A stretch of DNA of 64,000 bases from Rhodovibrio salinarum DSM 9154. Lineage in GTDB: Bacteria; Pseudomonadota; Alphaproteobacteria; Kiloniellales; Rhodovibrionaceae. The stretch is from the NCBI RefSeq assembly GCF_000515255.1, contig NZ_KI911559.1:3766693-3830692 (forward strand), written 5' to 3'. The notes below the pieces were generated by a model. The model saw nothing but the letters and a program-made list of their open reading frames with translations, did no database searches and was not told where the DNA came from. A program made the translations under genes and the position numbers. Below, piece by piece: positions 1,360 through 22,667 of the stretch. Numbering within the stretch: the first letter of the stretch is position 1; each line of letters starts with the position of its first letter.

Positions 1360-1404
1360 ATGAGACGACACGCTGCGCCGCTATGGCTTAGCCGTCGAAA
1401 ATGA
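1360..1404 (+). CDS. Possible 14-residue leader peptide
   Basis: A 14-codon frame (MRRHAAPLWLSRRK) starts 6 bases after a strong Shine-Dalgarno stretch, GGAGGGG. Its stop TGA overlaps the ATG at 1401 (ATGA), which is in frame with the acyl-AMP ligase. This could be a translated leader coupled to a longer ligase start, or chance. It is too short to assess by composition. Confidence 0.2.
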   Translation: MRRHAAPLWLSRRK

Positions 1405-1526
1405 CAAGCTCCGCCCCGCGGACGGCCTCAGGTGAAAAGGGGGATAGCCGCGCCGTACACCTGCCCGAAGCGTCCGGTCGGCGCGGCTCACGCGCCGGCG
1501 GACACGCTGAACACCAGCTGAGAGCG

Positions 1527-3359
1527 ATGAGGCAACCACAAGAGAGCCATGCCGTGGCTAATAAGCCTATGCCTGCCACCCCCGCCTCGGGGGCGCCAGA
1601 GGTAACACCCACCAGCGACCCGTCCCTGGCATACCGCCCTGCCGATTTCGCCAACCTGACCGACGCCCTGGACTACGCAGCCCGGGGTGAGACCGGGCTC
1701 AATTTCTACGACCGCCGGGGCCGAGTGGCGACCGTTGTGAGCTACGCCGCGTTGCGGCGGCGCGCACTTGAGGTGGCGCGCGGGCTCCTTGCCCAGGGGC
1801 TGGAGCGCGGCGAGCGCGTCGCGCTGGTTGCGGAGATGGCCCCAGCGTTCGCCGTCGGGTTTTTCGCCTGTCAATACGCGGGCCTTCACGCGGTGCCTGT
1901 GCCCGCGCAGGCCGGCCTGGGCAACTCGGCGGGTTACGTCGACGGTTTGCGGCGCATCCTTGTTAGTGCGCGCGCCCGGATCGCACTGGGCGGAGAGAGG
2001 GACCTCGAACCGCTTAAGGCGGCGGTGGCCGGACTGCAGGTCGGCCGTGTAACCACCGTCGCAGCGCTACTGGACGAGGCCGGTTCGGGGCCTGGGGAAG
2101 GCGCGCTGCAGCCGCTCGGCCCGGCGGAGATCAGCCACGTCCAGTACTCCTCGGGCAGCACGCGCGATCCCGTCGGCATACAGATCGATCAGCACGGGTT
2201 GATGGCGAACGCCGCACGCGCGGTGCGCGACGGGCTGGCCATCGGCGCCGACGACCGTGCGGTGTCCTGGTTGCCGTTTTACCATGATATGGGCCTCATC
2301 GGCTTTCTGGCGATGCCGGTAACCTGTCAGATGTCAGTGGATTATCTGGCGCCGGAGGCGTTCGCCCTGCGGCCCACGTTGTGGCTGGAGCTGATCTCGG
2401 CGAACCGCGGCACAGTGGCGTTCAGCCCGACCTTCGGCTACGAGCTCTGCACCCGCCGCGCGCCCGGGCTGAAAGAGCTAGATCTCAGCAGCTGGCGAAT
2501 CGCGGGGGTTGGTGGCGAGCGCGTGCGCCCGGAAACGCTGGAGGCCTTCGCCGCGACCTTCGCGCCGGCCGGCTTCCACGCGACGGCCTTCACGCCGTCC
2601 TACGGGCTGGCGGAAGCGACGCTTGCCGTAAGCTTCCACGCCACGAGGCACGCCCCGGTGGTCGACACGGTGGATGCCACGGCGCTGATGCGGGACGGTG
2701 AAGCCCGGCCGGTGTCGGCTGGCGACACCGCGCAGGCATGCCGTTTCGTTGCGTGTGGCCGGCCGCTGACCGACCATCAGGTCCAGATTCGGGACAGCGC
2801 CGGGCGCCGTCTTGCCGAGCGCGCGGTGGGCCGGATCTTCGTCGCTGGCCCCAGCCTGATGCGGGGCTACGTCGACAACGATGCGAACAGTGTCGGCGCG
2901 CCGCAGCCTGATGGGTGGCCGGACGGCTGGCTGGACACGGGCGATCTCGGCTACCTTGCCGACGGTGCCCTCTACGTCACCGGCCGCCGGAAGGATCTGA
3001 TCATCGTCAACGGCCGCAACATCCCACCGCAGGACCTGGAGTGGGTTGCTGAACAGGCGGTCGATAGGTTGTCCGACCGCGACACCGCCGCCTTCTCGGT
3101 GCTTGATTCGGCGGGGCGGGAAACACCGGTCTTGCTTGCGCAGATTCGCGCACGGGACCCGCAGGTCCGCAAGCGCCTGCGCGAGCGCATCCAGGCCGCG
3201 CTGTTCCAGAGCTTAGCTATCACCTGCCGTGTCATACTTGTCCCGCCGCGTAGCTTGCCGTTCACAAGCTCGGGTAAGCTCAGTCGGACCAAGGCGCGCG
3301 AGTTGTACCTTTCCGGCAGCTTGGGCAATGCCGGCCCGGCGGCAACAGCTGGCGAGTGA
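1527..3359 (+). CDS. aasR: Fatty acyl-AMP ligase / acyl-ACP synthetase of ceramide synthesis
   Basis: This adenylate-forming enzyme of about 610 residues should activate a fatty acid and load it onto the acyl carrier protein encoded two genes downstream. The AMP-binding loop reads YSSGSTRDPVGI, the Lys-less form typical of fatty acyl-AMP ligases. Further motifs are PSYGLAEATLA, WLDTGDLGYL, GRRKDLIIVNGRN and a C-terminal SSGKLSR holding the catalytic Lys. The start is uncertain: ATG 1527 follows GAGAG closely, but the frame stays open back to ATG 1401, and GTG 1554 is also possible. The stop is followed directly by the start of the next gene. In Caulobacter the equivalent enzyme, AasR, is one of five proteins needed for ceramide, and the same gene neighbours occur here. 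Confidence 0.8.
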   Translation: MRQPQESHAVANKPMPATPASGAPEVTPTSDPSLAYRPADFANLTDALDYAARGETGLNFYDRRGRVATVVSYAALRRRALEVARGLLAQGLERGERVALVAEMAPAFAVGFFACQYAGLHAVPVPAQAGLGNSAGYVDGLRRILVSARARIALGGERDLEPLKAAVAGLQVGRVTTVAALLDEAGSGPGEGALQPLGPAEISHVQYSSGSTRDPVGIQIDQHGLMANAARAVRDGLAIGADDRAVSWLPFYHDMGLIGFLAMPVTCQMSVDYLAPEAFALRPTLWLELISANRGTVAFSPTFGYELCTRRAPGLKELDLSSWRIAGVGGERVRPETLEAFAATFAPAGFHATAFTPSYGLAEATLAVSFHATRHAPVVDTVDATALMRDGEARPVSAGDTAQACRFVACGRPLTDHQVQIRDSAGRRLAERAVGRIFVAGPSLMRGYVDNDANSVGAPQPDGWPDGWLDTGDLGYLADGALYVTGRRKDLIIVNGRNIPPQDLEWVAEQAVDRLSDRDTAAFSVLDSAGRETPVLLAQIRARDPQVRKRLRERIQAALFQSLAITCRVILVPPRSLPFTSSGKLSRTKARELYLSGSLGNAGPAATAGE

Positions 3360-4340
3360 GTGGTGGCACCGTCTGCCGACACCACCGCCGGACCGGGGAC
3401 TTCCGCCCGGGCGACGCGGGTCGCGGTGACCGGGGCGGGCGGATTTCTCGGGCGGCGCGTCGTCGCCCAGCTGGCTAGGACGGGGTATTCCGTCCGCGCG
3501 CTCTACCACAGGCGCGGGCCTGACGGCACTGCGGACGTGGAGCCCGTTCGCGGCAGCCTGGCGGATGCGGAGGCCCTGGACCGACTCGTCGCGGGCTGCG
3601 ATGCGGTGATCCACTTGGCCGGTCTAGTCGCCGCTGACCGGCCGGGCCGGTTCGACGCGGTCAACCACGCCGGAACCGTCCGGCTGGCCGAGCGCGCGGC
3701 CGCCGCACGGGTTGGCCGCTTCCTTTTCGTCTCCAGTCTTGCGGCGCGGCATCCGGCGTTGTCGCCCTACGCGGCAAGCAAGCGCGCCGGAGAGCGGGCG
3801 TTGACCGGGCGCATGGATCTGCCGGTCGACGTGCTCCGGCCGCCGGCGGTGTACGGGCCGGGAGACCCGCAGATCCTTATGTTCCTGCGGTTGCTCCGGC
3901 TGCGGATCGCCCCGCTTCCCGGTCCGCCCACGGCCCGGGTCTGTCTCATCCACGCCGACGACGCGGCCTCAGCCATCGCCGCCTGGCTCGCGGGCCCGGG
4001 CGCGTCCGGGGCGATTTACGAGATCGCCGATGACCGGCCTGACGGCTACAGCTGGCGCGAGCTGATGGAGATAGCCGCATGTGCCTGTGGCGTGCGGCCG
4101 TGGTATTTGCGTCTCGGGCGGCCAGCCCTTATCCCGTTGGGGGCACTAGGCGAGGGGGTGGCGCGTCTCACCGGGCGGGCCGCGCCGTTATCGCGCGGCA
4201 AGGTGCGCGAGCTGACCCATCCCGATTGGCGGACCGACTGGACGGCCTTTGGCCGGCGAACCGGCTGGGGGCCCACTGTCGAGTTGCGCGCCGGGCTAAC
4301 CCGGACGGTCGACTGGTACCGGGCGCACGGCTGGCTCTAG
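3360..4340 (+). CDS. cerR: CerR-type NAD-dependent epimerase/reductase of ceramide synthesis
   Basis: A 326-residue extended short-chain dehydrogenase. The dinucleotide-binding motif TGAGGFLG is at residues 24-31, and the catalytic Ser is near 125 with YAASK at 137-141. In bacteria with this gene set CerR reduces the 3-keto group of the long-chain base or of oxidised ceramide. The GTG start is immediately adjacent to the TGA of the ligase gene, so translation is probably coupled. The family also contains sugar epimerases, so the assignment rests on context: ligase before, ACP and Spt after. Confidence 0.75.
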   Translation: MVAPSADTTAGPGTSARATRVAVTGAGGFLGRRVVAQLARTGYSVRALYHRRGPDGTADVEPVRGSLADAEALDRLVAGCDAVIHLAGLVAADRPGRFDAVNHAGTVRLAERAAAARVGRFLFVSSLAARHPALSPYAASKRAGERALTGRMDLPVDVLRPPAVYGPGDPQILMFLRLLRLRIAPLPGPPTARVCLIHADDAASAIAAWLAGPGASGAIYEIADDRPDGYSWRELMEIAACACGVRPWYLRLGRPALIPLGALGEGVARLTGRAAPLSRGKVRELTHPDWRTDWTAFGRRTGWGPTVELRAGLTRTVDWYRAHGWL

Positions 4341-4377: not shown

Positions 4378-4668
4378 ATGACCGAAAATACGGTTGGGAC
4401 GCCGACCCCGGAGCACCGCGAGATTGTTGAGGCCGTGTGCGCAGAACTGGAAAAACACAACACGACCGGCATTCAACTCCACGAAGATACCGACGTCACC
4501 GGCGAACTAGCGATCGACTCGGTCGCCGTGATGGATCTGATGTTCGAATTGGAAGAGCGGTTCGACATCGCGGTGCCATTGAACCAACTGGGGAGTGTAC
4601 GCACGATCGGGCAGATTGCGGACCTTGTCCGGTCGCAGGCCAAATCCGGGGGGCAGCAAACCGAATGA
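4378..4668 (+). CDS. acpR: Acyl carrier protein for serine palmitoyltransferase
   Basis: A 96-residue acidic carrier protein. The phosphopantetheine attachment motif is IDSVAVMDL with Ser48, and the helix II region LEERFDIAVP is clear. It probably carries the acyl chain loaded by the upstream ligase and hands it to the downstream Spt or to the ceramide synthase. The gene ends in an ATGA overlap with spt (4665-4668), a strong sign of coupled translation. Confidence 0.85.
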   Translation: MTENTVGTPTPEHREIVEAVCAELEKHNTTGIQLHEDTDVTGELAIDSVAVMDLMFELEERFDIAVPLNQLGSVRTIGQIADLVRSQAKSGGQQTE

Positions 4669-5873
4669 AAGATCTACTCGCCAAGTTCACCGCCGTCGGG
4701 CGCCAGCATGCTGAGCTCTTGGCCCAGGTTGGTAGCGATCCGCTCGGGGTCCGCGTCGATCGCGTGATCGGGCCAACAGAAGCGGAGATTGAGGGCCGTC
4801 GCTGCGTGCTCCTGGGCTCCAACAACTACCTGGGGCTGACCTTCGAGCCGACGGCGCTTGAGGGCGCGCACGCCGCCCTCGACGCAGCTGGAACTGGGAC
4901 CACCGGGTCGCGGGTGGCAAACGGCTCCTACAGTCTGCACCAGGACCTGGAGCGCCAGCTTGCGGCCTTCTTTGGGCGCCGGCACGCGCTGTTGTTCAGC
5001 ACCGGTTACCAGGCGAATGTCGGCATGCTCTCCGCGATCGCCGGCCGAGACGACACTGTCCTGATCGACTCCGACTGCCACGCCAGCATCTACGACGGCT
5101 GCAAACTGAGTGATGCCACGGTCCAGCGCTTCCGCCACAACGACCCGGAGAACCTGGACCGCCGTCTGGCCCGCCTGCAGGCGCCAGGCAACGCGCTGGT
5201 GGTGATCGAGGGGATTTACTCAATGCTGGGTGACCGCGCTCCCGTGCGGGAAATCGCCGAGGTCACCCGGCGTCACGGCGCCTATCTTATGGTGGACGAG
5301 GCGCATTCCCTGGGCGTGACCGGACCGGGCGCCCGTGGCGTCGCGGCGGAAGCGGGCGTCGCGGACAAGGTCGACTTCATCGTCGGCACCTTTTCCAAGA
5401 GTGTGGGCACGATCGGCGGGTTTTGCGCCGCCGACCACGACGCACTGGAAGCGATCCGCCTGTCGGCGCGCGCCTATCTCTTCACCGCATCCCTGCCCCC
5501 CGCTGTGGTAGCGTCGGCCAGGTGCACGCTGGAGCGAATGCGTACCGATCCCGGTTTGCGCGACCGGCTGTGGGCCAACGCCGAGATTGTCTACGACGGG
5601 CTCGCTCGAATGGGATTTGAGCTCGGGCCGGAGAAGACGCCGGTAATCGCCGTGCGCATGCCGGACACGCAGACCGGCCTCACCACTTGGCGCGACCTGC
5701 TGGACGACGGCGTGTACGTAAACCTAGCGCTACCCCCGGCAACCCCGAACGGCAACTGCCTGCTGCGCTGTTCCGTCTGCGCCGCGCACTCAGCCGACCA
5801 ACTGGACCACGTGCTTGCTGCATTCGCGCGGGTGGCGGACGCGCCCGATTGGCGCGGCACGGCCGCAGAGTAG
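4665..5873 (+). CDS. spt: Serine palmitoyltransferase
   Basis: A 402-residue alpha-oxoamine synthase that condenses serine with an acyl thioester to give 3-keto long-chain base, the committed step of sphingolipid synthesis. Visible features are GTGTTGSRVANGSY near 77-90, the PLP-stacking His139, Asp211 in DEAHSLG, and Lys245 in GTFSKSVGT, which forms the Schiff base with PLP. Length and motifs fit soluble bacterial Spt. Related enzymes (KBL, BioF, ALAS) share the fold, but the adjoining ACP, CerR and acyl ligase favour Spt strongly. The ATG start overlaps the ACP stop. Confidence 0.88.
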   Translation: MKDLLAKFTAVGRQHAELLAQVGSDPLGVRVDRVIGPTEAEIEGRRCVLLGSNNYLGLTFEPTALEGAHAALDAAGTGTTGSRVANGSYSLHQDLERQLAAFFGRRHALLFSTGYQANVGMLSAIAGRDDTVLIDSDCHASIYDGCKLSDATVQRFRHNDPENLDRRLARLQAPGNALVVIEGIYSMLGDRAPVREIAEVTRRHGAYLMVDEAHSLGVTGPGARGVAAEAGVADKVDFIVGTFSKSVGTIGGFCAADHDALEAIRLSARAYLFTASLPPAVVASARCTLERMRTDPGLRDRLWANAEIVYDGLARMGFELGPEKTPVIAVRMPDTQTGLTTWRDLLDDGVYVNLALPPATPNGNCLLRCSVCAAHSADQLDHVLAAFARVADAPDWRGTAAE

Positions 5874-5894: not shown

Positions 5895-6848
5895 TCAACG
5901 CAGCCCGCCGGCCCGGTAGATACGCCACAAAAGCGGCCAGCCGCCGATCAGCGGGTGCCGGCGCTGGAAAGGCGTTGGCCGAACCGCTACGCCGCTGTGC
6001 CGCTCGATCTTGGCGCATACGTAATCCACACCGCCGTCGAAGGTAAACGTGGCCTTGATCGCCCGGGCGAGCGACAGCACTTTGCCCGCCGGTCGGGCGA
6101 CTTGGCTCGCCAGCTGGGCGCGCCCGCGCTGCCAGCGTGTCAGATGCACCCGCACGCGGCCATCATCGCTCAGGGACGCATGCGGCGAGAGGCAGCGGAT
6201 AGCCGTTGGCGTGCGGGCCGTCAGCGCGGTACCCCCCGCCGCCACGATCGCCCGGGCCCGTGCCGGCGCCTCGCTGCGCAGCTCCCGGGCGTAGGTCTCG
6301 GTTAGGCCGGCCTGCCAGAGATCGTGCGGGGTCGTGCGGTCGGGCAAAATGCCTAGAAGCTTGCGGTGAAAGCTCACGGTAGCAGCCGTCAGGGCGTCGA
6401 GGATCGCCGACCGGGTCGCCTCGTCGCGGGCGTATATCAGCCGGCACGGCTGGGCGAACCGGGCCCAGATGGAAGGGGTCGCCGACCGCCCAGCGGTCCC
6501 ACGCGCAAACTGCGTCCAAGTGACCACGGCCACCTTCGCTCCGACGAGTGTCCCGTCTTTGCATACGGTGGTTTCAAGATAGATCACGTTGGGCGGCAGG
6601 AGCCGATTAAGGCCGGCCAGTACCGGACCGAAACCGGTCGCGGATGGGGTGTCGACAAGCAGATACAGGTCGATCAAGTCGGCGTGACGCGGCGCCCACA
6701 GACTGCTACCGTAGAACAGTACCCCTACCACCTGCTCGCGCCGGCACCGCGCCAGCAGGGCGTCGACCGCCGCGCGAACCTGGGCGTCGACGGCGGTCTC
6801 CGCAGCTTCAACCACGAGGGCGCGCAAATCGGTCCACCCCTCGGACAT
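5895..6848 (-). CDS. TAM41-like nucleotidyltransferase, probable CDP-lipid or head-group enzyme
   Basis: A 317-residue protein. Near residue 40 it has YGSSLWAPRHADLIDLYLLVD spread over about 20 positions, a GS motif followed by an acidic strand as in polymerase-beta-fold transferases. The pattern GS-x-D-h-x-h-h-V resembles the mitochondrial CDP-diacylglycerol synthase TAM41. The sequence around TWTQFARGT and IWARFAQPCRLIY also recalls TAM41. In this operon it could convert ceramide-1-phosphate to a CDP-activated lipid; that is inference. It is the last gene of a leftward operon, starting 11 bases after the kinase stop, and converges on spt with a 21-base gap. Caulobacter has a comparable set of cpg genes next to spt. 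Confidence 0.5.
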   Translation of the reverse strand: MSEGWTDLRALVVEAAETAVDAQVRAAVDALLARCRREQVVGVLFYGSSLWAPRHADLIDLYLLVDTPSATGFGPVLAGLNRLLPPNVIYLETTVCKDGTLVGAKVAVVTWTQFARGTAGRSATPSIWARFAQPCRLIYARDEATRSAILDALTAATVSFHRKLLGILPDRTTPHDLWQAGLTETYARELRSEAPARARAIVAAGGTALTARTPTAIRCLSPHASLSDDGRVRVHLTRWQRGRAQLASQVARPAGKVLSLARAIKATFTFDGGVDYVCAKIERHSGVAVRPTPFQRRHPLIGGWPLLWRIYRAGGLR

Positions 6849-6859
6849 GATCGTAGGCC

Positions 6860-7819
6860 TCACGCCACGACGAAGCGGAGCGAGCTGTCCGACTGCACCG
6901 TAAGGGTGGCGTCGGCCGGACCGTCGAGCGGCTCCCCGTCTAGCACCCAGTCTTCGGTCGCGCTCAGCGCGACCGATCGGCAGCGGCATGCCGCGAACGG
7001 TTTCGACTCGATGGCCGTAAAGGACGGCCAAGGGCGCCATAGCGCGGACGGCGCACGCCGCCAGAGGCCTGGGACGTGGGCGTTGATCACCGCCACGCCG
7101 ACGCCATCGCCGGGCGATACCGGGCGTAAACCGAGCAGCAGCCGTTCAAGGCTGGTGACAATCACGGCGATGCGGGGTGCGGTCGCGCCCGGACTGTCGT
7201 TGCAGACGATCCGCACGTCGGCCGGTCGGAGGAGGGGCGTGGTTTTGAGCCCACCACACGCCAGGCGCCAAAGGCTCCAGATCAGGGCGAGCGACCACGC
7301 GAGTGGGCCAGCAATGCCGCGGGCATACAGACCGCGCCGCGCGGCTGCCGTTACCCGCGGGATCCCCACGCCGCCGAGGAAGAACCCGTAGGACGGCGGC
7401 GCGCCCGCGCTCCGCACCAGAAGCGGACGCCGCGTAACTATTGGCAGCTGGCCGTCGGTCGTGTCCCAGTGTTTGAGCAGGCGTGCAAGAGCGGCCGCGG
7501 GCGCGCCTGGGCAGCCGGCATCGCGGGCGATCATGTTGGTGCTGCCGCCGGACAAAACCGCAAGAATCGGCTCGCGAGTGAAAGGCTTGTGCCGGCGCAG
7601 CGCGGTCACGACTGCGACCACCGTGCCGTCGCCGCCGTCGATCGCGAGCACGCGAGTGTTCCGCGCCGCGAGGGTGCGCAGCGCGTTGGGAAGTTCCCGT
7701 AGCCTCGCCGGTTGTAGATGGTCGATCCCGCGGGCGCGGGTGAGCGCCTCGAGCTCGCGGCGAGCGCGCGTGCGGTTGTTGCCGCTGGCCGGGTTGGACA
7801 AGACCGCGATATCGCTCAT
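6860..7819 (-). CDS. cpgB: Diacylglycerol-kinase-family lipid kinase, probable ceramide kinase
   Basis: A 319-residue protein of the DAGK catalytic family. The nucleotide-binding motif DGGDGT is at 61-66 and LSGGSTNMIARD is near 90. Such kinases phosphorylate a lipid hydroxyl. Placed beside spt and between a CDP-alcohol transferase and a nucleotidyltransferase, it fits the role of Caulobacter CpgB, which makes ceramide-1-phosphate. The start codon overlaps the stop of the upstream gene by four bases (ATGA). A generic diacylglycerol or sphingosine kinase cannot be excluded from sequence alone. Confidence 0.65.
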   Translation of the reverse strand: MSDIAVLSNPASGNNRTRARRELEALTRARGIDHLQPARLRELPNALRTLAARNTRVLAIDGGDGTVVAVVTALRRHKPFTREPILAVLSGGSTNMIARDAGCPGAPAAALARLLKHWDTTDGQLPIVTRRPLLVRSAGAPPSYGFFLGGVGIPRVTAAARRGLYARGIAGPLAWSLALIWSLWRLACGGLKTTPLLRPADVRIVCNDSPGATAPRIAVIVTSLERLLLGLRPVSPGDGVGVAVINAHVPGLWRRAPSALWRPWPSFTAIESKPFAACRCRSVALSATEDWVLDGEPLDGPADATLTVQSDSSLRFVVA

Positions 7820-9018
7820 ACTGGTGCCTTGAGCCAAGATGCGACTGGCTGTCCACGGGTGTTCGCCCGCTCCGCTTGCACGGTCCGGAGGAGATGGATG
7901 ACAGCGGAGGCCAGGATCCATGCGGTCGTGGCCAGGATTCCTAGATCTGGGCGGCCGGCGAGCCAGGCCAGTGTCAGCAGCACGAGGCACGGGTTACGGC
8001 GGGCGGTGATTTGTCGGAACCCGGAATCGAACCGTGTCCAGACGAACAACTCAAAGCCGAACCGACGGGTGAAATACCCTTCCGGCAGCCGGCCCAAGAC
8101 GTAGCCAACGAAAATCGCCGCCACGGTCCAATCGAGCCACGGCTGTGGCAGCGCGTGACCGGTCTCCACCAGCCCGTAAGCCCAGGCCGCGTACCACAGC
8201 GGCGGGTGCACAAGATCAATGCCATGGTCGAACAGGTTACCGAACTTCGATGACGACAGGGTAACGCGTGCCAGCTTGCCGTCAACGGTATCGAGGAAGG
8301 TCATCAACCAAGCTGCGAGCAACCCCCAACCGTAAGCACTCGTAGCGAACGCCCACAGCGCGGCCAACACCAGTACCGCGCTCAAAAGCGTGACCGCGTT
8401 CGGGGTCACGCCCAGGCGGACGCAGCCGCGTGTCGCCCACATCGCCGGTACCGGCCAGACGTGTTTGGTGACGGCGTCCGTTATACCCTTGTAGGCAGCC
8501 ATGTACACACGCCGCTCCACCGCGCGCTGTGTGGCGCGATCAACTTGCAGGCAGTAGGGGGGCTCGCGCTTACGCAGCTTCCCGCGGTAGGCGTCCCCGG
8601 CGTGCTCCGGCGCGCACGGAGTGGTACCGTCCGGTGGCAGGCCTTCGCCTGTCAGCCATGCTCGCGCTTGCTCGGTCTGGCGGGCGGGGACGTGAACGGC
8701 CAGGCGCACCGTGCCGTTGTCGGTCGGGCGCTCCAGGCGCGTTCCCGGCTGGTTCAGCAGGGCCGACAGGAGAGGCGTGTCGTACACGACGTCGCCGCGC
8801 AGCAGCAGGACGCGCTTGGTCCGGGGGTACGATCCACGTGCCGCCCACGACACGTCCGCCACGCTGAGGCCCTTGAACTGGCGGTGAATCCGCTGTTCCG
8901 GTTCGAGCCCCCAAACCTTGACCGGCTCTTCGGACCTCACGACATAAACCGTTACGGCGGAGTTGTTAGGCTCGGTGGTATGTGTCACCAATGAAAATCC
9001 CGCCTTGCTTCCGGACAT
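7816..9018 (-). CDS. CDP-alcohol phosphatidyltransferase with an N-terminal nucleotidyltransferase-like domain
   Basis: A 400-residue integral membrane enzyme. Residues 1-175 look like a worn nucleotidyltransferase domain: it keeps LLLRGDVVYD near 71-80 but lacks a clear GxGxR loop. From about 185 the CDP-alcohol transferase begins, with the full signature D243-x2-DG-x2-AR-x8-G-x3-D264-x3-D268 and several hydrophobic helices. The two-domain layout resembles the IPCT/DIPPS enzymes that make phosphodiester polyols. Here it probably joins a CDP-activated partner to ceramide phosphate or adds a polyol phosphate head group; the substrate is unknown. It is the first gene of the leftward three-gene operon. 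The start was chosen at ATG 9018; an in-frame ATG at 9060 would overlap the divergent gene. Confidence 0.75.
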   Translation of the reverse strand: MSGSKAGFSLVTHTTEPNNSAVTVYVVRSEEPVKVWGLEPEQRIHRQFKGLSVADVSWAARGSYPRTKRVLLLRGDVVYDTPLLSALLNQPGTRLERPTDNGTVRLAVHVPARQTEQARAWLTGEGLPPDGTTPCAPEHAGDAYRGKLRKREPPYCLQVDRATQRAVERRVYMAAYKGITDAVTKHVWPVPAMWATRGCVRLGVTPNAVTLLSAVLVLAALWAFATSAYGWGLLAAWLMTFLDTVDGKLARVTLSSSKFGNLFDHGIDLVHPPLWYAAWAYGLVETGHALPQPWLDWTVAAIFVGYVLGRLPEGYFTRRFGFELFVWTRFDSGFRQITARRNPCLVLLTLAWLAGRPDLGILATTAWILASAVIHLLRTVQAERANTRGQPVASWLKAPV

Positions 9019-9040
9019 CTGAATGTCGCCGAACGCCCCG

Positions 9041-9904
9041 ATGAGGCTTTTCGCACACATTTCCGATTTGCACCTACCGCCGCTGCCAGCGATCCGGCCG
9101 CGCGAATTCACGGGCAAGCGTCTGCTGGGATACGTGGTCTGGCACCGACGGCGCAAGTATGAACATCGCGTCGAGGTGTTAGACGCTTTGCTCCACGAGC
9201 TGGCCTGTCAGGCGCCCGATCATGTCGTAATCACCGGCGATCTAACCAACCTCGGCTTGGCCGCGGAGTTTGAGGGCGTTGCGCGCTGGCTCAGACGTCT
9301 CGGGCCCACGAGGGCCGTCACCCTGATTCCGGGTAACCACGATGCCTACGTCCAAGCGAGCGAAGAGGCGATGCGATTGGCGTTGCGGCCCTGGCTGCTG
9401 GACGACGACGGGGCGGCCGAGTTTCCGCTCCTGCAAGTCCGTGGCGGGGTCGCTTTCATCGGGGTTTCGACGGCGATACCAACGGGCATCGGGCAGGCCC
9501 ATGGCCGGGTTGGATGCGAGCAGATGTCGCGACTGGCGGCGATTCTCCGCACCGCTTTGGCTCGCGGACTCACACGCGTGGTGGCTTTGCACCATCCACC
9601 CCAGTGGGGCGCCGAAAACTGGCGCCGGGGCTTGGACGATGCTTCGGCCTTGCGCGCGATAATCGCCAAGGAGGGCGCGGACTTGGTTCTGCACGGCCAT
9701 GCCCATGGGCCCCGTCAAGCCGACCTGCCGGGCCCGCACGCGCCTGTCCCGGTTTACGGGGTGGCTTCCGCGTCGTTGCTGAAAAACAGGACGCACCAGA
9801 CTGGGCACTACCGCCTTTTCCGGCACCGCGCTGGTGGCCACTTCGCCGTCGAGGAGCGATGCTTCGATCCAGCGATCGGGACGTTCACTGCAGCCCGGGT
9901 ATAA
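9041..9904 (+). CDS. Metallophosphoesterase (Icc-like), possible lipid-phosphate phosphatase
   Basis: A 287-residue calcineurin-like phosphoesterase with all metal-binding blocks: SDLHL near residue 8, GDLTN, GNHD, HHPPQW and GHAHG. The start ATG 9041 gives the usual MRLFAHISDLHL beginning; ATG 9023 is in frame and only 4 bases from the divergent start codon. In phospholipid synthesis a phosphatase removes a terminal phosphate after CDP-dependent head-group transfer, so a similar role on ceramide head groups is possible but inferred. Cyclic-nucleotide phosphodiesterase activity is the default family prediction. Confidence 0.7.
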   Translation: MRLFAHISDLHLPPLPAIRPREFTGKRLLGYVVWHRRRKYEHRVEVLDALLHELACQAPDHVVITGDLTNLGLAAEFEGVARWLRRLGPTRAVTLIPGNHDAYVQASEEAMRLALRPWLLDDDGAAEFPLLQVRGGVAFIGVSTAIPTGIGQAHGRVGCEQMSRLAAILRTALARGLTRVVALHHPPQWGAENWRRGLDDASALRAIIAKEGADLVLHGHAHGPRQADLPGPHAPVPVYGVASASLLKNRTHQTGHYRLFRHRAGGHFAVEERCFDPAIGTFTAARV

Positions 9905-10048: not shown

Positions 10049-10804
10049 ATGAAAGCGATCATCCTGAGCGCTGGACAGGGTAAGCGGTGTCTCCCATTGA
10101 CGAGCGAGACGCCCAAGTGTCTATTGCCGGTCGATCTTGATCACACCATTCTGACGTGGCAAATCTCGGTGCTCACGGCTGCGGGCATTACTGAATGCGT
10201 TGTCGTGTCGGGCTTCGAAGCCGGTCGTATTGATGAAGAACTAGCCCGGAAGCGTCTGTCGTCAGCGCGCACGATCTACAATCCCTTCTACGATGTCTCG
10301 GACAACCTAGCATCGGTCTGGTGCGCCCTTCCGGAAGCCACGGAGGATTTTCTGCTGATCAACGGCGATACCCTGTTCGCACCGGCCACCGTGCGCCGGT
10401 TGTTGGCCTCTCATGCAACGATCACCGTCACGATTTCGCAGAAAGCGCGCTACGATGCCGACGACATGAAGGTGCGAGTGTCCGATGAGTTGGTATGCCA
10501 AATCGGCAAGCACCTCAACCCGACCTGTGCGGACGGCGAGGCGATTGGTATGACCCTGTTTCGCGGCTCCGGCCGCGACTGCTTTGCCGAGACCGTGTAT
10601 CGAAGCTTGCGCCGGCCCGGCGGCCGTGATTTGTGGTACCCAGCCGCGTTAGACGAACTAGCGCGCGGGGACGGGCTGACCGTATCGCATTGTAGTACGG
10701 ACGCGTGGTGCGAGGTTGATGTGCCAAGCGACCTACAACAGGCCCGCCAGGCCGTGCAGCGTTGGCGCAGCACGGGGGCGCCTCACCTGGCCGCCGTGTC
10801 GTGA
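10049..10804 (+). CDS. LicC-like sugar/alcohol-phosphate nucleotidyltransferase
   Basis: A 251-residue nucleotidyltransferase of the GT-A fold. The start MKAIILSAGQGKRCLPLT is the NTP-binding loop, followed by PKCLLPV. INGDTLF near 108 supplies the metal-binding Asp. The segment YNPFYDVSDNLASVW resembles the phosphocholine and inositol-phosphate cytidylyltransferases (LicC, IPCT) more than sugar enzymes. It could supply the CDP- or NDP-activated head group for the CDP-alcohol transferase, whose own N-terminal nucleotidyltransferase domain looks inactive. Its 3' end overlaps the converging next gene by 22 bases. Confidence 0.7.
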   Translation: MKAIILSAGQGKRCLPLTSETPKCLLPVDLDHTILTWQISVLTAAGITECVVVSGFEAGRIDEELARKRLSSARTIYNPFYDVSDNLASVWCALPEATEDFLLINGDTLFAPATVRRLLASHATITVTISQKARYDADDMKVRVSDELVCQIGKHLNPTCADGEAIGMTLFRGSGRDCFAETVYRSLRRPGGRDLWYPAALDELARGDGLTVSHCSTDAWCEVDVPSDLQQARQAVQRWRSTGAPHLAAVS

Positions 10805-11610
10805 GCGCCCGGGCCCTGTCGCGCGATCCGGCGGACGAGCGCGAGGTCAGCTGGCGTATCGACATCGATCGCCGCTTCGGGCTGTTCCAGCAAAACCGGC
10901 GCAACTCGGCAGCCGATCTGTGCGGAAAGCCGCTCCAGCGCCTGCGCAAGGGTCCAACGGCGCAGAAGATAACCAACCAGGCTCGCCGGGCCGAGTCGCG
11001 CGGCGATACGATGCGGGGCCTTACGGCTCTGTTCCAGCTCGCGCCAGAAGGTCACGGCGCGCGACCCGGCCGGGCGCATCATGGCGTAAAGGTTACATCC
11101 GCTGTACACTCCGTCGCGCATCCGTAGCCTGCTGCAGCGCACTTCCGGGTAGCGTTGCGCCAGGATCTGAACCTGGTTCATGGCAACTGCGAAGTCACAG
11201 GCAGCCCGCTGTGCGCCGACCAAGACGTCGTCTACCATGGCGGCCGTTAGCAGCGGATGGTCTGCGGTGACGATCAGCAGCGGCCGGTCACCGGGTGCTA
11301 CGGCGGCGCCGTCGAGTGCGCTGGCCGCGCGCGAGGGTCCCGGTTCGCGTAAGCTCACCGACCCCGCGCGAATGTGCGCGGGCAATTCCGTGAGGTGGGC
11401 CGTCGTCACGGCGTCTCGGCTCAGACTCAGCGTGACGTGGGTGATCCGATCGCTGGCGAGGAGGGCCGCAACCACCCGCTCGACCATTGCGGTGCCGGCC
11501 ACTCGCGCGAATGGCTTGGCCGCGACCGAGTCGGCCTGGGCCACGGGATGGGTCCGATCGACGCCGCCTGCGAGCACGAGCGCGTGCGCTCTTGCACCGT
11601 CGTTCGTCAT
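10783..11610 (-). CDS. MobA-like NTP transferase in the ceramide synthase operon
   Basis: A 275-residue nucleotidyltransferase. It opens with HALVLAGGVDR and an AKPFARVAGTAMVERV segment, and has LLIVTADHPLLT near residue 115 as the metal-binding region; IDVDTPADLALV lies at the C-terminus. The loop lacks the usual GxG-R-M, so the nucleotide used is unclear. It is the last gene of the leftward operon starting with the HIT gene, and its ATG overlaps the ceramide synthase stop by four bases. It is a second candidate for making the activated head group. Confidence 0.6.
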   Translation of the reverse strand: MTNDGARAHALVLAGGVDRTHPVAQADSVAAKPFARVAGTAMVERVVAALLASDRITHVTLSLSRDAVTTAHLTELPAHIRAGSVSLREPGPSRAASALDGAAVAPGDRPLLIVTADHPLLTAAMVDDVLVGAQRAACDFAVAMNQVQILAQRYPEVRCSRLRMRDGVYSGCNLYAMMRPAGSRAVTFWRELEQSRKAPHRIAARLGPASLVGYLLRRWTLAQALERLSAQIGCRVAPVLLEQPEAAIDVDTPADLALVRRIARQGPGAHDTAAR

Positions 11611-12749
11611 CTCAATGCCTTGCGATAGAGCCGGTAACGTTTGTCCTCCTCAGCCCTCAACAGCTCGAGTAAGCGGATCATCGGTTCGTTGTCCTCCAGA
11701 ATCCACGACAGTTCGAACTCGGCCATGTTTAGGCCGCGGGCGGCCTCATGGAGGCGTTGCATCATCAGTGCGCTCAGCCCGGCGGCAAGGTTGCCGCCTT
11801 GGTAACGCCGTCGCACGCCCATAAGCATAACCCTGCCGTGTTCCGGTGGGCGGAACTTAATCCGCCACAGCAGCCACGCCCAACCGAACGGCAGCAGCCG
11901 GCCGCGCAACTCGCGCAGAACTATGTAGAGGTCAGGCACGGCGACGATCATTGCCACCGGCTCGCCGTCGTATTCCGAGATACGGACCAACTCCGGGCGG
12001 ATAATCGGTTTCAGGCTTCGGGTCATGTGGCGGACTTCCGCCTCTGTCATCTGGACAAAGCCCCAATTACCGGACCAGGCATCGTTGAACACGTTGGCGA
12101 CCCGACGCATCTCCGCATTGAGGTCGCGCATATCGAGTTGCCGTTCCCGAACGCGCGGGTCAGCGGCGGCGCTACGGGCGACGAGCGCGGCTCTTGCGGG
12201 AAAGCTCTGATTAACGTTCGCCCGGTACGCGAGCAGGTCCTTGGCCTTGATGTAGCCGGCCTTCTCTAGGGCCTTGGCGTACCATGCAGGGCCGTAGTTC
12301 ATTAGCACCCTTGGCGGGCGGTCGTGCCCCACCACGAGAAGCCCAGTCTCATCGTTGCTGGACAGGCTGTACGGGCCCTCCGACAGCGCTGCGCCCTCGT
12401 CCAGGAGCCAGGCTTCCGCCGCCTCCAGGAGCGCGTGCAGAACCTCTTGGTCGGCGGCCTCAACCAGGCCGAAATGGCCGATCGGCGTACCGAGATCCGG
12501 TTGCGCAAGCCAGTCGATCTGCGCGCTTATCCGGCCCACCGGCCGTCGGTTCCGGCATGCGAGGAAGAATCGTGCGCGGGCGTGCTCGAAATAGGGGTTG
12601 GCTGTGCCGAAATGCTGGCGCCGCTCGAATTGCAGCGGCGGAACCCAGTTCGGATCGTTGTGATAAAGCGCGAAGGGGACGCGAACGAACGCGCGCAGGT
12701 CTCGCCGGCTGTCGACCGGTCGCACCGCGATCTCTTCAGGTTCCGTCAT
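11607..12749 (-). CDS. bcerS: Bacterial ceramide synthase (GNAT-fold N-acyltransferase)
   Basis: A 380-residue protein that should N-acylate the sphingoid base to give (dihydro- or keto-)ceramide. It matches the family annotated as a large GNAT-like acyltransferase: an N-terminal part with FVRVPFALYHNDPNWVPPL, a middle part with EGPYSLSSNDETGLLV, and a C-terminal acyl-CoA-fold region with RRRYQGGNLAAGLS. FALYxxDPxWVPPL is characteristic of the group that includes Caulobacter bCerS. It sits 4 bases after the permease gene and overlaps the next gene by 4. The assignment is strengthened by spt, acpR, cerR and aasR nearby. Confidence 0.75.
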   Translation of the reverse strand: MTEPEEIAVRPVDSRRDLRAFVRVPFALYHNDPNWVPPLQFERRQHFGTANPYFEHARARFFLACRNRRPVGRISAQIDWLAQPDLGTPIGHFGLVEAADQEVLHALLEAAEAWLLDEGAALSEGPYSLSSNDETGLLVVGHDRPPRVLMNYGPAWYAKALEKAGYIKAKDLLAYRANVNQSFPARAALVARSAAADPRVRERQLDMRDLNAEMRRVANVFNDAWSGNWGFVQMTEAEVRHMTRSLKPIIRPELVRISEYDGEPVAMIVAVPDLYIVLRELRGRLLPFGWAWLLWRIKFRPPEHGRVMLMGVRRRYQGGNLAAGLSALMMQRLHEAARGLNMAEFELSWILEDNEPMIRLLELLRAEEDKRYRLYRKALR

Positions 12750-12753
12750 TGCC

Positions 12754-13830
12754 TCAGCTTTCCGCCATAATCAGCGACCAAAACGCTAGGGCGGCGAACA
12801 TGACTGCCGGGGCCCAGGCCGCGAAGGCGGGCGGCAGCACGGCAGTCTCACCCAGCGGGATCAGCAACCGTTCCAAGCCGAAGTAAAGCGCGCCCGCGGC
12901 CAGGGTTGCCAGCCCCAGTAGCACGAGTTGCCGCCGGCGCGCATGCTGATATGCCATGTGTGCCGGAAGCAGCGCCATCACCAAGCACGAGACAGGTTGA
13001 GCCAATTTGCGGTGCGTCCAAAACCGGTAATACCGGGGTGTGCGTTCGCTGTAGCCTGCGTCCTTGCGCAAGGACCATGCTTCGCCGAACGACAGTTCCT
13101 CGGGGCCCTGGCCAAAATTGCCGAAACGACTGGGATCCCACCGGAACGCAGGGATAGGTGTTTCTTGCGCAGGACCGCTGTCGCGCGCAGCGACCAGTCG
13201 CTCGACCCCGTCCAAGCGCCAGCGCCCGTCGACAAATCGGGCTTTTTGCGCTTTGAAGAACGCCTCGAGCCCGCCGGCGGGATCGCGCTGGATAACAACC
13301 ACGTCGTGCAGCCTTTGTCCGTCAGCTGATGCCAGTCCGATGTGCACGATGGCGCTGTCCGCGGCCAGCCAGAGCCCCTGCTCCTCCGAGCGCGCGCCTG
13401 GAGGCAGCCCGGCGTAACCGCGCGCCTGCCAGGTCGCCAGCCTGCCGGCGGTCTCGACCGCGACCAGGTTGGCGAACAGGAAGTGCGCGCCAGCAACCAG
13501 CGCGGCGCCTATCAGAAGGATCCCGGTGATCTGCGTACCGGAAACACCGGCGGCACGCGCGACCACGAGCTCTTGGGAGGCGACTAGCGCGATCAGGGTC
13601 AGAAGCGCGCCGATCAGCACGGCGAGAGGAACCAGCAGGACCACCAGCGTGGGCAGCCTGAGACTGGCATAGGCAATCAAGCCAAGCCCGATGGGCGCGC
13701 CGCCGTCCAGCACGGCGTGGATGTGCGCAAGTGTGTCGAAAACCGTCAGCACAAGACCCAGTGCGGCGAGGGCGAGAGCGAAGCGCGCAAAGAACGTGAC
13801 CAGAAGGTAGCGGGCAAAGGTCAACGGCAT
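12754..13830 (-). CDS. LptF/LptG-family permease (second of pair)
   Basis: A 358-residue membrane protein with three N-terminal helices (about 10-35, 50-80, 95-115), a periplasmic beta-rich middle of about 150 residues and three C-terminal helices, the LptF/LptG layout. In canonical Lpt machines two such subunits with the ATPase LptB extract lipopolysaccharide from the inner membrane. Here the gene is not beside lptD but between another LptF-like gene and the ceramide synthase. This suggests a paralogue dedicated to sphingolipid export; that is inference. The ATG follows the previous stop by two bases. Confidence 0.75.
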   Translation of the reverse strand: MPLTFARYLLVTFFARFALALAALGLVLTVFDTLAHIHAVLDGGAPIGLGLIAYASLRLPTLVVLLVPLAVLIGALLTLIALVASQELVVARAAGVSGTQITGILLIGAALVAGAHFLFANLVAVETAGRLATWQARGYAGLPPGARSEEQGLWLAADSAIVHIGLASADGQRLHDVVVIQRDPAGGLEAFFKAQKARFVDGRWRLDGVERLVAARDSGPAQETPIPAFRWDPSRFGNFGQGPEELSFGEAWSLRKDAGYSERTPRYYRFWTHRKLAQPVSCLVMALLPAHMAYQHARRRQLVLLGLATLAAGALYFGLERLLIPLGETAVLPPAFAAWAPAVMFAALAFWSLIMAES

Positions 13831-13832
13831 CG

Positions 13833-14978
13833 TCAGGCGGCCTTTGAAACGGACGCGTGGCGGCGGCGCAGGGGCCCGAGGTTGCCAGCTTGAGCGATCC
13901 GCAGAAGACCCGCCGCTAGAAGCGCAAACGCAGCCACGACCCCCCATTGGCCGCCCCACGGTGGCAGCGTCCCGGACGCGACCAGTCCTTCCGCGAGCGC
14001 CAGCAGCTTCTGATAGAGGACCAGCACGCCAATCCCCACGGCGAAGCGCGTCAAGCGGCTGACACGCCCGGCGCGCAGGACCGGTATTGGTGCGGCCAGA
14101 ACCGCGAGCAGCGGGATCGACACTGCCGACACCAAGCGTTTGTTCAGTTCCGCAACACGGACCTCCTGGCTGAGATCGCCGCCGGCTGCCGGGGTGTCGG
14201 AAAGCAGTTCCGGTACTGTAAGTTCGCGCTCGTCCTTGCCGCGCGGACCGCGCGAGGTGGTCCCCTGGACCGGTAGCGGCCAGATGTAGTGCTCGAAGTC
14301 GACTTTCTCCACGCCGCTGGCACCTCCTCGGTCGCGGATCAGGGTGCCTTGAGCCATCCGTACAACCAGCCGTTCGGTTTCGCGATCGGTGCTAAGCGTT
14401 CCTGCCTTGGCCAGCACGTAGGTACGTCCGTCGCCCGGCCGATCGCGGGCGGCGAAGACCCGCTCAAAATTTTGCCCGCGAGGACCGACTGCCCCCGCCC
14501 GCAGCACCGTGCCGTCGCCAATGTCGTAGAACACCCCGGGCAGGATCCGCATCGGCAAACGGGAAGCCATCACGTCGCGCAACGTGTCTCGGTAGGCGTA
14601 CCGGCCGTAAGGTTGCAGGAAGGCCGTGTTAACGGCCATCAATGCCGCCAACAGCAGAGCCGCGACCACCAGCGGGCGTAGCAGGCGGGTCAGCGGTATG
14701 CCGGCGGCATGCATCACCGACAACTCGCTGTCGTGGCGCATTTGGTGGAGAGAAGTCAGGACGGCCAGGAACGCGGCTGCCGGCACGGCCAGCCCGAGGT
14801 AGTGGGGAAGCAGCGCGACGATCATGTCGAGCGCGCGCCCAACTGACGCACCTCGATCGGTTACCGTTCGGGTGATCTCGAGCAGACGCTCCAAGGTGAG
14901 GGCCAGAAGCATCACGGCCAGCATGACCGTGAAGTGGAAGGCCGCACGACGCAGCAGGTACCGAGATAGAACCGTCAT
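13833..14978 (-). CDS. LptF/LptG-family permease (first of pair)
   Basis: A 381-residue membrane protein with the same layout as its downstream partner: helices near 10-32, 50-75 and 90-112, a soluble periplasmic region to about 270, then three helices. The segment MHAAGIPLTRLLRPL after helix 2 is typical of LptF-type coupling helices contacting LptB. The start ATG 14978 was preferred to TTG 15026, which would overlap the HIT gene. No lptB, lptC or lptA gene was found in the window, so it must borrow these or use others. Its position in the ceramide synthase operon suggests lipid export. Confidence 0.75.
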   Translation of the reverse strand: MTVLSRYLLRRAAFHFTVMLAVMLLALTLERLLEITRTVTDRGASVGRALDMIVALLPHYLGLAVPAAAFLAVLTSLHQMRHDSELSVMHAAGIPLTRLLRPLVVAALLLAALMAVNTAFLQPYGRYAYRDTLRDVMASRLPMRILPGVFYDIGDGTVLRAGAVGPRGQNFERVFAARDRPGDGRTYVLAKAGTLSTDRETERLVVRMAQGTLIRDRGGASGVEKVDFEHYIWPLPVQGTTSRGPRGKDERELTVPELLSDTPAAGGDLSQEVRVAELNKRLVSAVSIPLLAVLAAPIPVLRAGRVSRLTRFAVGIGVLVLYQKLLALAEGLVASGTLPPWGGQWGVVAAFALLAAGLLRIAQAGNLGPLRRRHASVSKAA

Positions 14979-15013: not shown

Positions 15014-15448
15014 TTAGTCTGGCCAAGCCGCAACGAGCCGGGCGTGCAGCCTGTCCGTCGTCACGGCGGGCAGCTCGACGCTGTGTGCCAAGTCAGGCGG
15101 ACCGGGCCAGCCCGGGTCCGAACAGCTGATCTCGTCGAAAACGCGCGTTTGCGCGTAGCGCGGCAACACATGGTAGTGCACATGGGGATCCTTCATCATC
15201 AACATCAGGTAGTTGATTTTGTCGTACGCCAGGGCATCCGTTAGGGCCCGCTCGATCGCCCGGACCACCGTTGCAGCCTCGGCGAACGCCGCGTCAGGAA
15301 GCTGGGCGAACGCGGTCGCCTCCGCCTTGGCGATCAGGACGAGCGCACCGAGCGTCGCCTGCCGCGGGCGCCGTTGAACCGTCCAGTGCGTATAGTCCGC
15401 GATCACTGTATCCGGGTAGCCAAATTCGGTCATCGTCCCGTGAGCCAT
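15014..15448 (-). CDS. HIT-family hydrolase
   Basis: A 144-residue protein with the histidine triad HVHYHVL near residue 92. HIT proteins hydrolyse or transfer nucleotides from phosphoramidates, dinucleoside polyphosphates or NDP-alcohols. It is the first gene of the five-gene operon leading to the ceramide synthase, preceded by GGTGGGAGC. A role in handling nucleotide by-products of head-group transfer is possible but not shown by sequence. Confidence 0.8.
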   Translation of the reverse strand: MAHGTMTEFGYPDTVIADYTHWTVQRRPRQATLGALVLIAKAEATAFAQLPDAAFAEAATVVRAIERALTDALAYDKINYLMLMMKDPHVHYHVLPRYAQTRVFDEISCSDPGWPGPPDLAHSVELPAVTTDRLHARLVAAWPD

Positions 15449-15593: not shown

Positions 15594-16295
15594 TCAAGTG
15601 AAATCCGCTGCTGGCTGCATCACGATCCGGGAGCCGTCGTCGTGCTGGAATGCAACCCGGAGCAGTAGCCCCCGGTCATCGTACCAGACGTCCCGCTGCA
15701 CCTCGCCGCCCAGGCGGTAGTGCCGGGCCGTCTGACGTGTGTCGCCGATCCGGACGGCTTCGCGCCCGATGTCCTGCGTGGCGTTGGTTTTCATCCAGCC
15801 GTCCTCGACCTCCAGAAGCTGTGGTGCCTGTGGGGTCCGGGGGTGCCAGAGCGTCGTCGTGAGGGGGCTTTCCGGGAACGTTCTGCGTTCACCCTTATGG
15901 TTCTCCAGCACCAGCGGACCGTCGCCGTCGCGTACGCCCGCCAGGCTTTTCTCTTTGCCGTTCTTGCGGGTTTGACTGTCGAGACCAATCAGGGTGTCGC
16001 CTCGCCAGCGTTCGACAGAGGTATGGCGGTAGCTGTATAAAGGGACGGAGAACAGTGTGACCACAAGATCAATCTCGGTGGTTACCGCCAGAATGTCGCC
16101 GTTCTGGCGTAGCGTACGAATGTGTGCGCCGATCGGGCGGCCTTCGCGCAGAACCGTATATCGGTACCGGCCAACGGGAGGCTCGACCGCAGCCCGTGCG
16201 TGGACATTCCCCAGGACTGCCAGGCATGCCCCGACCGCGCCGATACGGAGGGCAAAACCGCGTCGCGTGAAACCGCGTCGTGCCAAGGTAATCAC
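15594..16295 (-). CDS. DUF6134-type exported protein with Tat-like signal
   Basis: About 233 residues. The N-terminus carries TRRGFALRIGAVGACLAVLG followed by an ARA cleavage site, close to the twin-arginine pattern. The mature part is beta-rich with YRYTVLREGRPIGAH and RDVWYDDRGLLLRVAF, resembling DUF6134/DUF3108 periplasmic proteins. Start GTG 16295 places the signal at the N-terminus; ATG 16367 in frame would add 24 residues before it. The function is not known. A periplasmic protein next to a lipid-export operon might help carry lipid. A 145-base gap separates it from the HIT gene. Confidence 0.6.
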   Translation of the reverse strand: MITLARRGFTRRGFALRIGAVGACLAVLGNVHARAAVEPPVGRYRYTVLREGRPIGAHIRTLRQNGDILAVTTEIDLVVTLFSVPLYSYRHTSVERWRGDTLIGLDSQTRKNGKEKSLAGVRDGDGPLVLENHKGERRTFPESPLTTTLWHPRTPQAPQLLEVEDGWMKTNATQDIGREAVRIGDTRQTARHYRLGGEVQRDVWYDDRGLLLRVAFQHDDGSRIVMQPAADFT

Positions 16296-21260: not shown

Positions 21261-22667
21261 TTGACGGACCCGACCGCCTGCCTTTCATTGGCGTCCTTCG
21301 ATCTCTTGGAGGCCCTGCCTGCTTTGTCGATACGGTCCGTATTCGCCCGCCTGTCTAGCGGTCTCGCCGCTACCGCGAGCAAAGACTGGTTCGAGCCGCT
21401 ACGCCACGCGGGGATCCTCGCGGTCGGGCGAAGCGGCCAGGGCGTATTAAAGCTCGCCGCCGTGGCCGTCGCCGCCCAGACCCTCGGCGCGAGCGTCTAC
21501 GGCAGTCTGGTTATGATCAACGCGATGCGCAAGGTTTTGGCCGCGCTGGTGTTCGTCCGCTCGACGCATCTCGTGATGCGCTACGGCGCCCCGGCCCTGG
21601 AAGCGGACGATCCGGAGGGCTTTGGCCGGACGGTCGCGTTCGGGGTCTGGTTGGATGCGCTGAGCGCGGTCCTGGCCACGGCCACGGTCCTGGCGGTTAC
21701 CGGTTGGGTCGGCGGCTTGCTCAACCTGCCGCCCGATACGTTGAGCGCGGCGCGGGTGTTCGGGCTCTGCACTGTGTTCCCAGCGCTGACGATAACCGCG
21801 CATGCATTACTCCAGCTGTTCGGCATGTTCCGGTTTATAGCCCTGCAGGGAGTTGTCCTGCCGGGTCTGCAGCTGGCTGGAGGTGGGCTGGCGTTCGCAC
21901 TGGAGGGCGGCCTGGTCACGTTTCTGGTTGTCTGGTTCTCGGCGATCGCCCTGGCACGGGTGTGCTTGCTCGCGGCCTGCGTGATAGAACTCCGGCACCG
22001 TGGCCTGCTGGCGCATGTTGCTGCCAGCTTGCACCGGCCAAGGCGGCCGGGCGGCGGGGCCTGGCGCTACCTTTTTGGCGTCAACGCGCAGGCGTCGATG
22101 CGCCAAGTGCAGGATCGTGGCGGCGTTCTCGCCGCAGGTGCCCTTTTCGATCCAGGTGCGGCCGCGCTGGTCCAAGTTGCGCGCCAGCTGGGCGGCGCCT
22201 TGCGGCGCCCGGTAAAGACTGTCCTTTCGCCCGCGATCCTCCCGGTACTGATGCGCCAAACCGCCGGCAACCGATGGGAGACCCGACGTAAAACCTTACG
22301 CACCTTCTCGTTAGCCTCGCTCTGGGTTGCCCTAGGCTTGGTTGGCGGGCTTGGGGCGTTGGGTCAATCGATCCTGGTAACACTGTTCGGCCCCTCGTTC
22401 GAGGCGGCATATTGGGTCATGCTGATATTCGCGATCGGCGGGGGTATCCGCATGGCGACTGTTACCTTCGAGCCGCTGCTGGCGAGTGCGGGCCGTGTGA
22501 AAATCTTGTTGTCGGCGCAGGCAACCGCGCTTGGGGCGCACGTCGTGCTCTTGTTCACGCTAATACCTTTCGTTGGTGTAACGGGCGCAGCGTTGGCCGA
22601 GGCGTTCGCGCTGGCACTGCACGCCACGATGCTCTGGGTTTTGGGGCGGCAGGAATTTAGTCGATGA
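21261..22667 (+). CDS. MOP-superfamily lipid/polysaccharide flippase
   Basis: A 468-residue hydrophobic protein with about 12 predicted helices and the LGASVYGSLVMINAMRKVL segment typical of Wzx/polysaccharide transporters. It probably flips a lipid-linked glycan across the inner membrane. Given the glycosyltransferases nearby, its substrate may be their product. The start is unusual: TTG 21261 directly preceded by GGGAG; no convincing ATG lies near. It ends the glycan module. Confidence 0.7.
   Translation: MTDPTACLSLASFDLLEALPALSIRSVFARLSSGLAATASKDWFEPLRHAGILAVGRSGQGVLKLAAVAVAAQTLGASVYGSLVMINAMRKVLAALVFVRSTHLVMRYGAPALEADDPEGFGRTVAFGVWLDALSAVLATATVLAVTGWVGGLLNLPPDTLSAARVFGLCTVFPALTITAHALLQLFGMFRFIALQGVVLPGLQLAGGGLAFALEGGLVTFLVVWFSAIALARVCLLAACVIELRHRGLLAHVAASLHRPRRPGGGAWRYLFGVNAQASMRQVQDRGGVLAAGALFDPGAAALVQVARQLGGALRRPVKTVLSPAILPVLMRQTAGNRWETRRKTLRTFSLASLWVALGLVGGLGALGQSILVTLFGPSFEAAYWVMLIFAIGGGIRMATVTFEPLLASAGRVKILLSAQATALGAHVVLLFTLIPFVGVTGAALAEAFALALHATMLWVLGRQEFSR

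Follow-up and report, generated by a model that had tools for sequence, protein, structure and literature searches.

Why should a gene cluster for ceramide synthesis carry two permeases of the type known from LPS export? In the 64,000-nucleotide stretch of the Rhodovibrio salinarum DSM 9154 genome analysed here (the window), lptF2 and lptG2 are two intact minus-strand ORFs. They are separated from each other by 2 bases, and lptG2 from the ceramide synthase gene by 4 bases, the tight packing that a sequence-only reading of the locus had reported. The route of bacterial sphingolipids to the outer membrane was stated to be unknown in 2024 (PMC11087976 and PMC11324152), and according to the former paper no transporter of these lipids had been identified. 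In the same year LptC2, LptF2 and LptG2 were proposed to move phosphosphingolipids in Caulobacter, a proposal made, by its own statement, without investigating transport itself (PMC11324152). Mutants of Caulobacter lptF2 (CC_1156) are described there as sharing fitness with a CPG2-synthesis mutant.

Both window proteins are members of the LptF/LptG permease family (PF03739). They match the profile practically from end to end (positions 1-351 and 1-352 of 353) with scores of 206.5 and 209.7 bits against a curated cut-off of 27.9, and both possess the glutamate of the coupling helix, at the E84 position in LptF2 and at the E88 position in LptG2 (residues are numbered after Shigella LptF and the enterobacterial LptG of PDB chain 6mit_G). 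In sequence searches residues 3-379 of LptF2 matched the solved LptF 6s8h_F (5.4e-18), and LptG2 matched solved LptG chains, 9doh_G at 3.9e-19. Identity to the LPS pair of the same genome is 24-29%.

The pair is embedded in a sphingolipid cluster (Table 1). The Caulobacter genes for ceramide and CPG2 synthesis, as set out in PMC11324152, correspond to the set present in the window. Like Caulobacter crescentus LptF2/LptG2 (CC_1156/CC_1155), the window pair lies directly upstream of the ceramide synthase within a cluster of the same gene content, including ceramide-kinase-like, CDP-alcohol transferase and nucleotidyltransferase genes, and is a second pair besides an lptD-linked one. The Caulobacter loci L170, L183 and L200, found by the same LptF2 profile, show the same arrangement. 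We infer that the plus-strand nucleotidyltransferase is probably the CpgD equivalent. The flippase-like protein matches proteins encoded in further sphingolipid clusters (best 8e-42), among them Caulobacter locus L200 at 4e-20. Upstream of the HIT gene lies a gene for a DUF6134 protein (15594-16379, minus strand), common only to the sister cluster in genome G058 (L052); it was considered as a periplasmic substitute for LptC and discarded, being present in this one other cluster and in 0 of the 80 named loci. An ORF just upstream of the cluster (6-1139, plus strand) reads, by its sequence alone, like a TnpB/OrfB-type transposon protein.

Table 1. The sphingolipid cluster of R. salinarum. Positions are those of the window; named loci are the 80 loci of the independent collection described in the text.
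Feature	Position	Strand	Evidence and context
Acyl-AMP ligase (AasR-like)	1401..3359	+	sequence; family kept in 62/80 named loci
CerR-like SDR reductase	3360..4340	+	PF01370 2.1e-26
Serine palmitoyltransferase (Spt)	4437..5873	+	PF00155 1.5e-54; conserved
Protein without Pfam match, probably CC_1161-like	5895..7040	-	kept beside ceramide kinase; 70/80 named loci
Diacylglycerol-kinase-fold protein, probable ceramide kinase, CC_1160-like	6860..7990	-	PF00781 1.4e-13
CDP-alcohol phosphatidyltransferase-like head-group enzyme, CC_1159-like	7816..9156	-	PF01066 2.9e-12
Metallophosphoesterase	9023..9904	+	PF00149 7.5e-18; in 70/80 named loci
Nucleotidyltransferase, probably CC_1152/CpgD (phosphoglycerate cytidylyltransferase) equivalent	10049..10804	+	PF12804/PF00483; kept in 43/80 named loci
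Nucleotidyltransferase, Caulobacter CC_1153 position	10783..11610	-	PF12804; 4-bp overlap with bcerS; kept beside bcerS elsewhere
Ceramide synthase (bCerS; GNAT fold)	11607..12749	-	weak PF00583 match; 4 bp downstream of lptG2
lptG2, LptG-type permease, sphingolipid clade	12754..13830	-	358 aa; PF03739 7.8e-61; tree; solved-LptG matches
lptF2, LptF-type permease, sphingolipid clade	13833..14978	-	381 aa; PF03739 8.4e-62; F2 profile 399.6 bits
HIT-domain protein, probably CC_1157-like	15014..15448	-	PF01230 3.2e-05; just upstream of lptF2; 54/80 named loci
MOP-type flippase-like membrane protein, related to the putative flippase encoded at the CC_1166 position	21261..22667	+	no Pfam match

A search of the 4.18 Mb genome with PF03739 returned exactly four genes, the two of the window plus another pair (G000:C1:4058784-4061017) that directly adjoins the genome's only LptD (4056683-4057789). 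Thus, the pair in the window cannot be taken for just the usual LPS exporter, as it would have been had the genome contained no further lptFG beside lptD. The two pairs also differ in descent. In a maximum-likelihood tree of 118 LptF and LptG sequences, the sphingolipid-cluster proteins formed clades of their own (SH-aLRT 97 for LptF, 95 for LptG), and the lptD-linked LptF and LptG clades reached 100 each. Both window proteins fall into the sphingolipid-cluster clades, in each case as sister to the G058 protein, and neither groups with the lptD-linked alphaproteobacterial LptF or LptG. An odd pair on a long branch, from genome G022, was placed unstably, with no stable fit to either the sphingolipid or the LPS clade. 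This locus (L083, C2:499772-501927) is a divergent second LptFG that scores 76-82 bits against PF03739, and its genome has no ceramide synthase. A weak CDP-alcohol transferase-like match lies about 3 kb away, and the pair possibly represents a third cargo type.

Co-occurrence with the ceramide synthase, which the sequence-only reading had proposed as a test, was followed in 190 alphaproteobacterial genomes sampled across the class. Relatives of bCerS occur in 26 of them; one weak local match in G184 was excluded, leaving 25 ceramide-synthase genomes. A profile of the window-type LptF (F2) splits LptF into two groups with nothing between them, 22 sequences at 399.6 bits or more and all others at 188.7 bits or less, a gap that is partly due to construction because the profile was built from the very 22 genomes that it groups. 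That no further genome joined the group is not a matter of construction. Window-type LptF is present in 22 of the 25 ceramide-synthase genomes and in 0 of the 165 others (Fisher p 7e-26), in keeping with the proposal. As an independent check, the same profile was applied to a separate named collection. It returned 80 loci, a few of them from genomes identical or nearly identical to those of the class sample, among them Niveispirillum, Azospirillum, Stella, Magnetospirillum, Caulobacter, Robiginitomaculum, Tateyamaria and Acidisoma, but also Hydrocarboniphaga, Nevskia, Lysobacteraceae and Burkholderiaceae, so that gamma- and betaproteobacteria are covered. In the loci of at least 18 kb, which were counted as complete, a ceramide synthase relative lies within 10 kb of LptF in all cases (62/62) and LptD in none (0/62).

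The genes next to the pair bear on the nature of its cargo. Head-group genes (ceramide kinase and partners) stand beside it in 20 of the 22 LptF2G2 genomes, whereas in the three ceramide-synthase genomes devoid of F2G2 (G035, G079 and G066) the examined stretches of 20 to 60 kb contain ceramide genes but none for head groups (p 0.004). This contrast points to head-grouped sphingolipids rather than ceramide as the transported lipid. The exceptions, G012 and G145 (one family, no LpxC), may be glycosphingolipid makers or have their head-group genes elsewhere.

The distribution of LPS synthesis provides a further line of evidence. With LpxC as the sole marker for LPS, the 24 ceramide-synthase genomes with Lpt genes divide into 11 with and 13 without LpxC. 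Ordinary LptFG is present in 11/11 of the former and in 0/13 of the latter (p 4e-7), and nine of the LpxC-positive genomes carry the window-type pair in addition. Each of the 13 LpxC-less genomes contains one LptD and a single LptFG pair, always window-type and located about 6 kb or less from the ceramide synthase but far from LptD. Relatives of lptC, lptA and lptB occur together at 9 of the 11 LptC/LptB sites fetched from these genomes; the other sites have LptC and LptA only (G145) or LptB only (G058). Canonical LptFG would be expected to disappear along with LPS synthesis, yet all 13 genomes retain the window-type pair. Most simply, these bacteria would have lost LPS but retained the Lpt bridge, now driven by LptF2G2 alone, in which case the cargo is not LPS. 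As the 13 genomes span ten families and are scattered over the F2 and G2 clades, the LPS extractor was probably lost more than once; on its well-supported branches the tree calls for at least 8 changes of this state, LptF and LptG counted together. One of these genomes, G093, is Desertibaculum subflavum (100% match to L154). Sphingomonas koreensis is named as a sphingolipid former without LPS in PMC11324152.

Judged from gene content and phylogeny, the window pair is quite probably an LptF2/LptG2 that would serve as a dedicated inner-membrane extractor for head-grouped (phospho- or glyco-) sphingolipids, with a shared LptB and a shared bridge to LptD. The sphingolipid would be made on the cytoplasmic side and then flipped, possibly by the MOP-type protein of the cluster. 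LptF2G2, driven by the shared LptB, would extract it from the inner membrane and pass it to the bridge ending at LptD, so that a single conduit would be loaded by either of two interchangeable extractors, one for LPS and one for sphingolipid.

How much of the machinery is shared can be graded step by step. LptC (at 1310483), LptA (about 1309632) and LptB (1308532) are encoded once each between 1.308 and 1.311 Mb, outside the sphingolipid cluster. LptB is the only match over the curated cut-off (370.9 bits versus 240; next best 178.3), and a cluster-specific LptB was rejected on the same threshold. A second pair with its own cargo would thus depend on the same LptB as the first. From the sequence-only suggestion of an extractor "sharing or replacing" LptB, the first half is thus favoured over the second by the single LptB outside the cluster and by the retained LptB-contact glutamates and ATP-contact arginines. 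For LptB, sharing is strongly indicated. For LptA and LptD it is indicated because two-pair genomes have one copy of each and genomes with F2G2 only have kept them. LptC is the least certain step since a second LptC (CC_1168) is listed for Caulobacter in PMC11324152. In R. salinarum, Pfam found one LptC, in a search that a divergent LptC2 could escape, and the DUF6134 gene lies upstream as a further difference. Species may differ in the periplasmic hand-over, or LptC2 may have diverged too far to be detected.

These considerations bear directly on the alternative that sphingolipids use a periplasmic route of their own, with a divergent LptC2 and perhaps other carriers, instead of the shared LptC-A-D bridge. 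The Caulobacter CC_1168 mutant, which shares fitness with spt and CPG-synthesis mutants according to PMC11324152, speaks for such a route. We nevertheless regard it as unlikely, because nearly all genomes, including those with F2G2 only, have one LptC and one LptD, and because lptC, lptA and lptB stay together at most fetched sites of the LpxC-less genomes. Moreover, an LptC profile made from 23 genomes was run against the ORFs from about 100 cluster loci as well as those of the window and the flank upstream of it, and gave no match even at E 10. On this basis a cluster-encoded LptC2 is improbable within the DNA covered, whose flanks end before the position of Caulobacter CC_1168.

Very unlikely, in our view, is an LPS exporter, either redundant or condition-specific, that came to lie in the sphingolipid cluster by chance. 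Membership in the same Pfam family and the full-length match to solved LPS permeases are compatible with it, as is LptF R33, a residue in contact with the 1-phosphate of lipid A in Shigella that is kept in 97% of F2, although the window LptF2 itself has E at this position. It is largely refuted by the 13 LpxC-less genomes that keep only the window-type pair, which moreover was never found without a ceramide synthase. The contact residues likewise argue against LPS as substrate. LptF E84 and LptG E88 bind LptB (PMC5082905), and LptF R292 and LptG R301 reach the bound nucleotide (PMC6744409); in sphingolipid-type pairs these residues are conserved at 100%, 85%, 99% and 95%, respectively. In contrast, LptG positions 40/41 (K40/K41), in Shigella the contact sites for the lipid A 4'-phosphate and for the inner core (PMC6744409), are basic in 8% and 8% of LptG2 versus 89% and 97% of ordinary alphaproteobacterial LptG. 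The residue pattern suggests that the coupling to the motor was kept and two LPS contacts were lost, as a statistical trend and no rule, since the R33 site of the window LptF2 deviates and the ordinary LptG of this genome also lacks the R/R pair at 40/41. Conserved features specific to LptF2 include R30, an HYLG segment, QP..RY and, close to where the periplasmic domain ends, FR.RG..EREL. Loss of LptF R212 bypasses LptC in E. coli (PMC9972910), and the residue was considered as a pointer to LptC-independence; arginine occupies this position in 33% of F2 and in 72% of ordinary LptF. Compared with canonical LptF/LptG of the LptB2FGC complex, the window type thus shares the fold family over its full length, the coupling-helix glutamates and the ATP-contact arginine positions, but it forms a separate clade away from lptD, has lost the basic residues at LptG 40/41 and persists when LPS synthesis is lost.

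That the pair handles another lipid co-occurring with sphingolipids, or regulates their synthesis instead of transporting them, is highly improbable. The substrate is a prediction from the genes, and the clusters also carry hydroxylase, DUF2141 and HIT genes, yet the pair lies directly upstream of the ceramide synthase among head-group genes in alpha-, beta- and gammaproteobacteria and is missing from three genomes whose ceramide synthase has no head-group genes as neighbours.

With transport of head-grouped sphingolipids by LptF2G2 as the preferred reading, we lean towards a modular Lpt conduit, in which one LptB, one LptC-A bridge and one LptD would accept either an LPS or a sphingolipid extractor. 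Several alphaproteobacterial lineages would have switched their outer leaflet from LPS to sphingolipid by dropping the LPS extractor and retaining the other parts, and LptD would be a sphingolipid translocon there. The sequence-only reading had regarded a dedicated sphingolipid extractor as a new use of the Lpt fold. The extractor itself is supported, but the idea had already been published for Caulobacter (PMC11324152). In the open-licence papers searched, no report was found of lineages devoid of LPS in which the LPS extractor has been replaced, or of the strict association with ceramide synthase. The comparative evidence makes the existing LptC2/F2/G2 proposal (PMC11324152) much stronger. 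The pattern offers a direct, testable answer to the transport question, namely that an LptFG paralogue brings sphingolipids to the shared Lpt bridge, and it suggests how whole lineages could live without LPS, with only the extractor swapped. If this is true, LptB, LptA and LptD act in these bacteria on a lipid that has neither glucosamine disaccharide nor core, which would show what the Lpt bridge really recognises.

Several loci deviate from the common arrangement. In the complete 5.4 Mb genome G066, which has a ceramide synthase and Spt (L087, L216 and L217; C1:1477001-1537000), no LptF/G, LptD, LptC or LpxC was detected, and G186 of the same family keeps LptF2G2 and LptD; the Lpt system of G066 appears to have been lost along with LPS. 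Ordinary lptF and lptG occupy separate genome sites in G028 (L080/L081; C1:2880986 and C1:628569), where only lptG remains beside lptD, and in G035 (L076/L077). A second, more distant ceramide synthase in G159 (L218, C6:1001-21000) has a divergent Spt-like gene as its neighbour but neither head-group genes nor LptFG in the vicinity, and may belong to a separate acyltransferase pathway. Two further protein families, neither of them found in the window cluster, recur in sphingolipid loci elsewhere: DUF2141 proteins (L170:9051-9737 and relatives) in about 40 loci and FA_hydroxylase proteins (PF04116; L053:11065-11880 and relatives) in about 42. In L053, for example, the FA_hydroxylase gene lies between lptG2 and bcerS.
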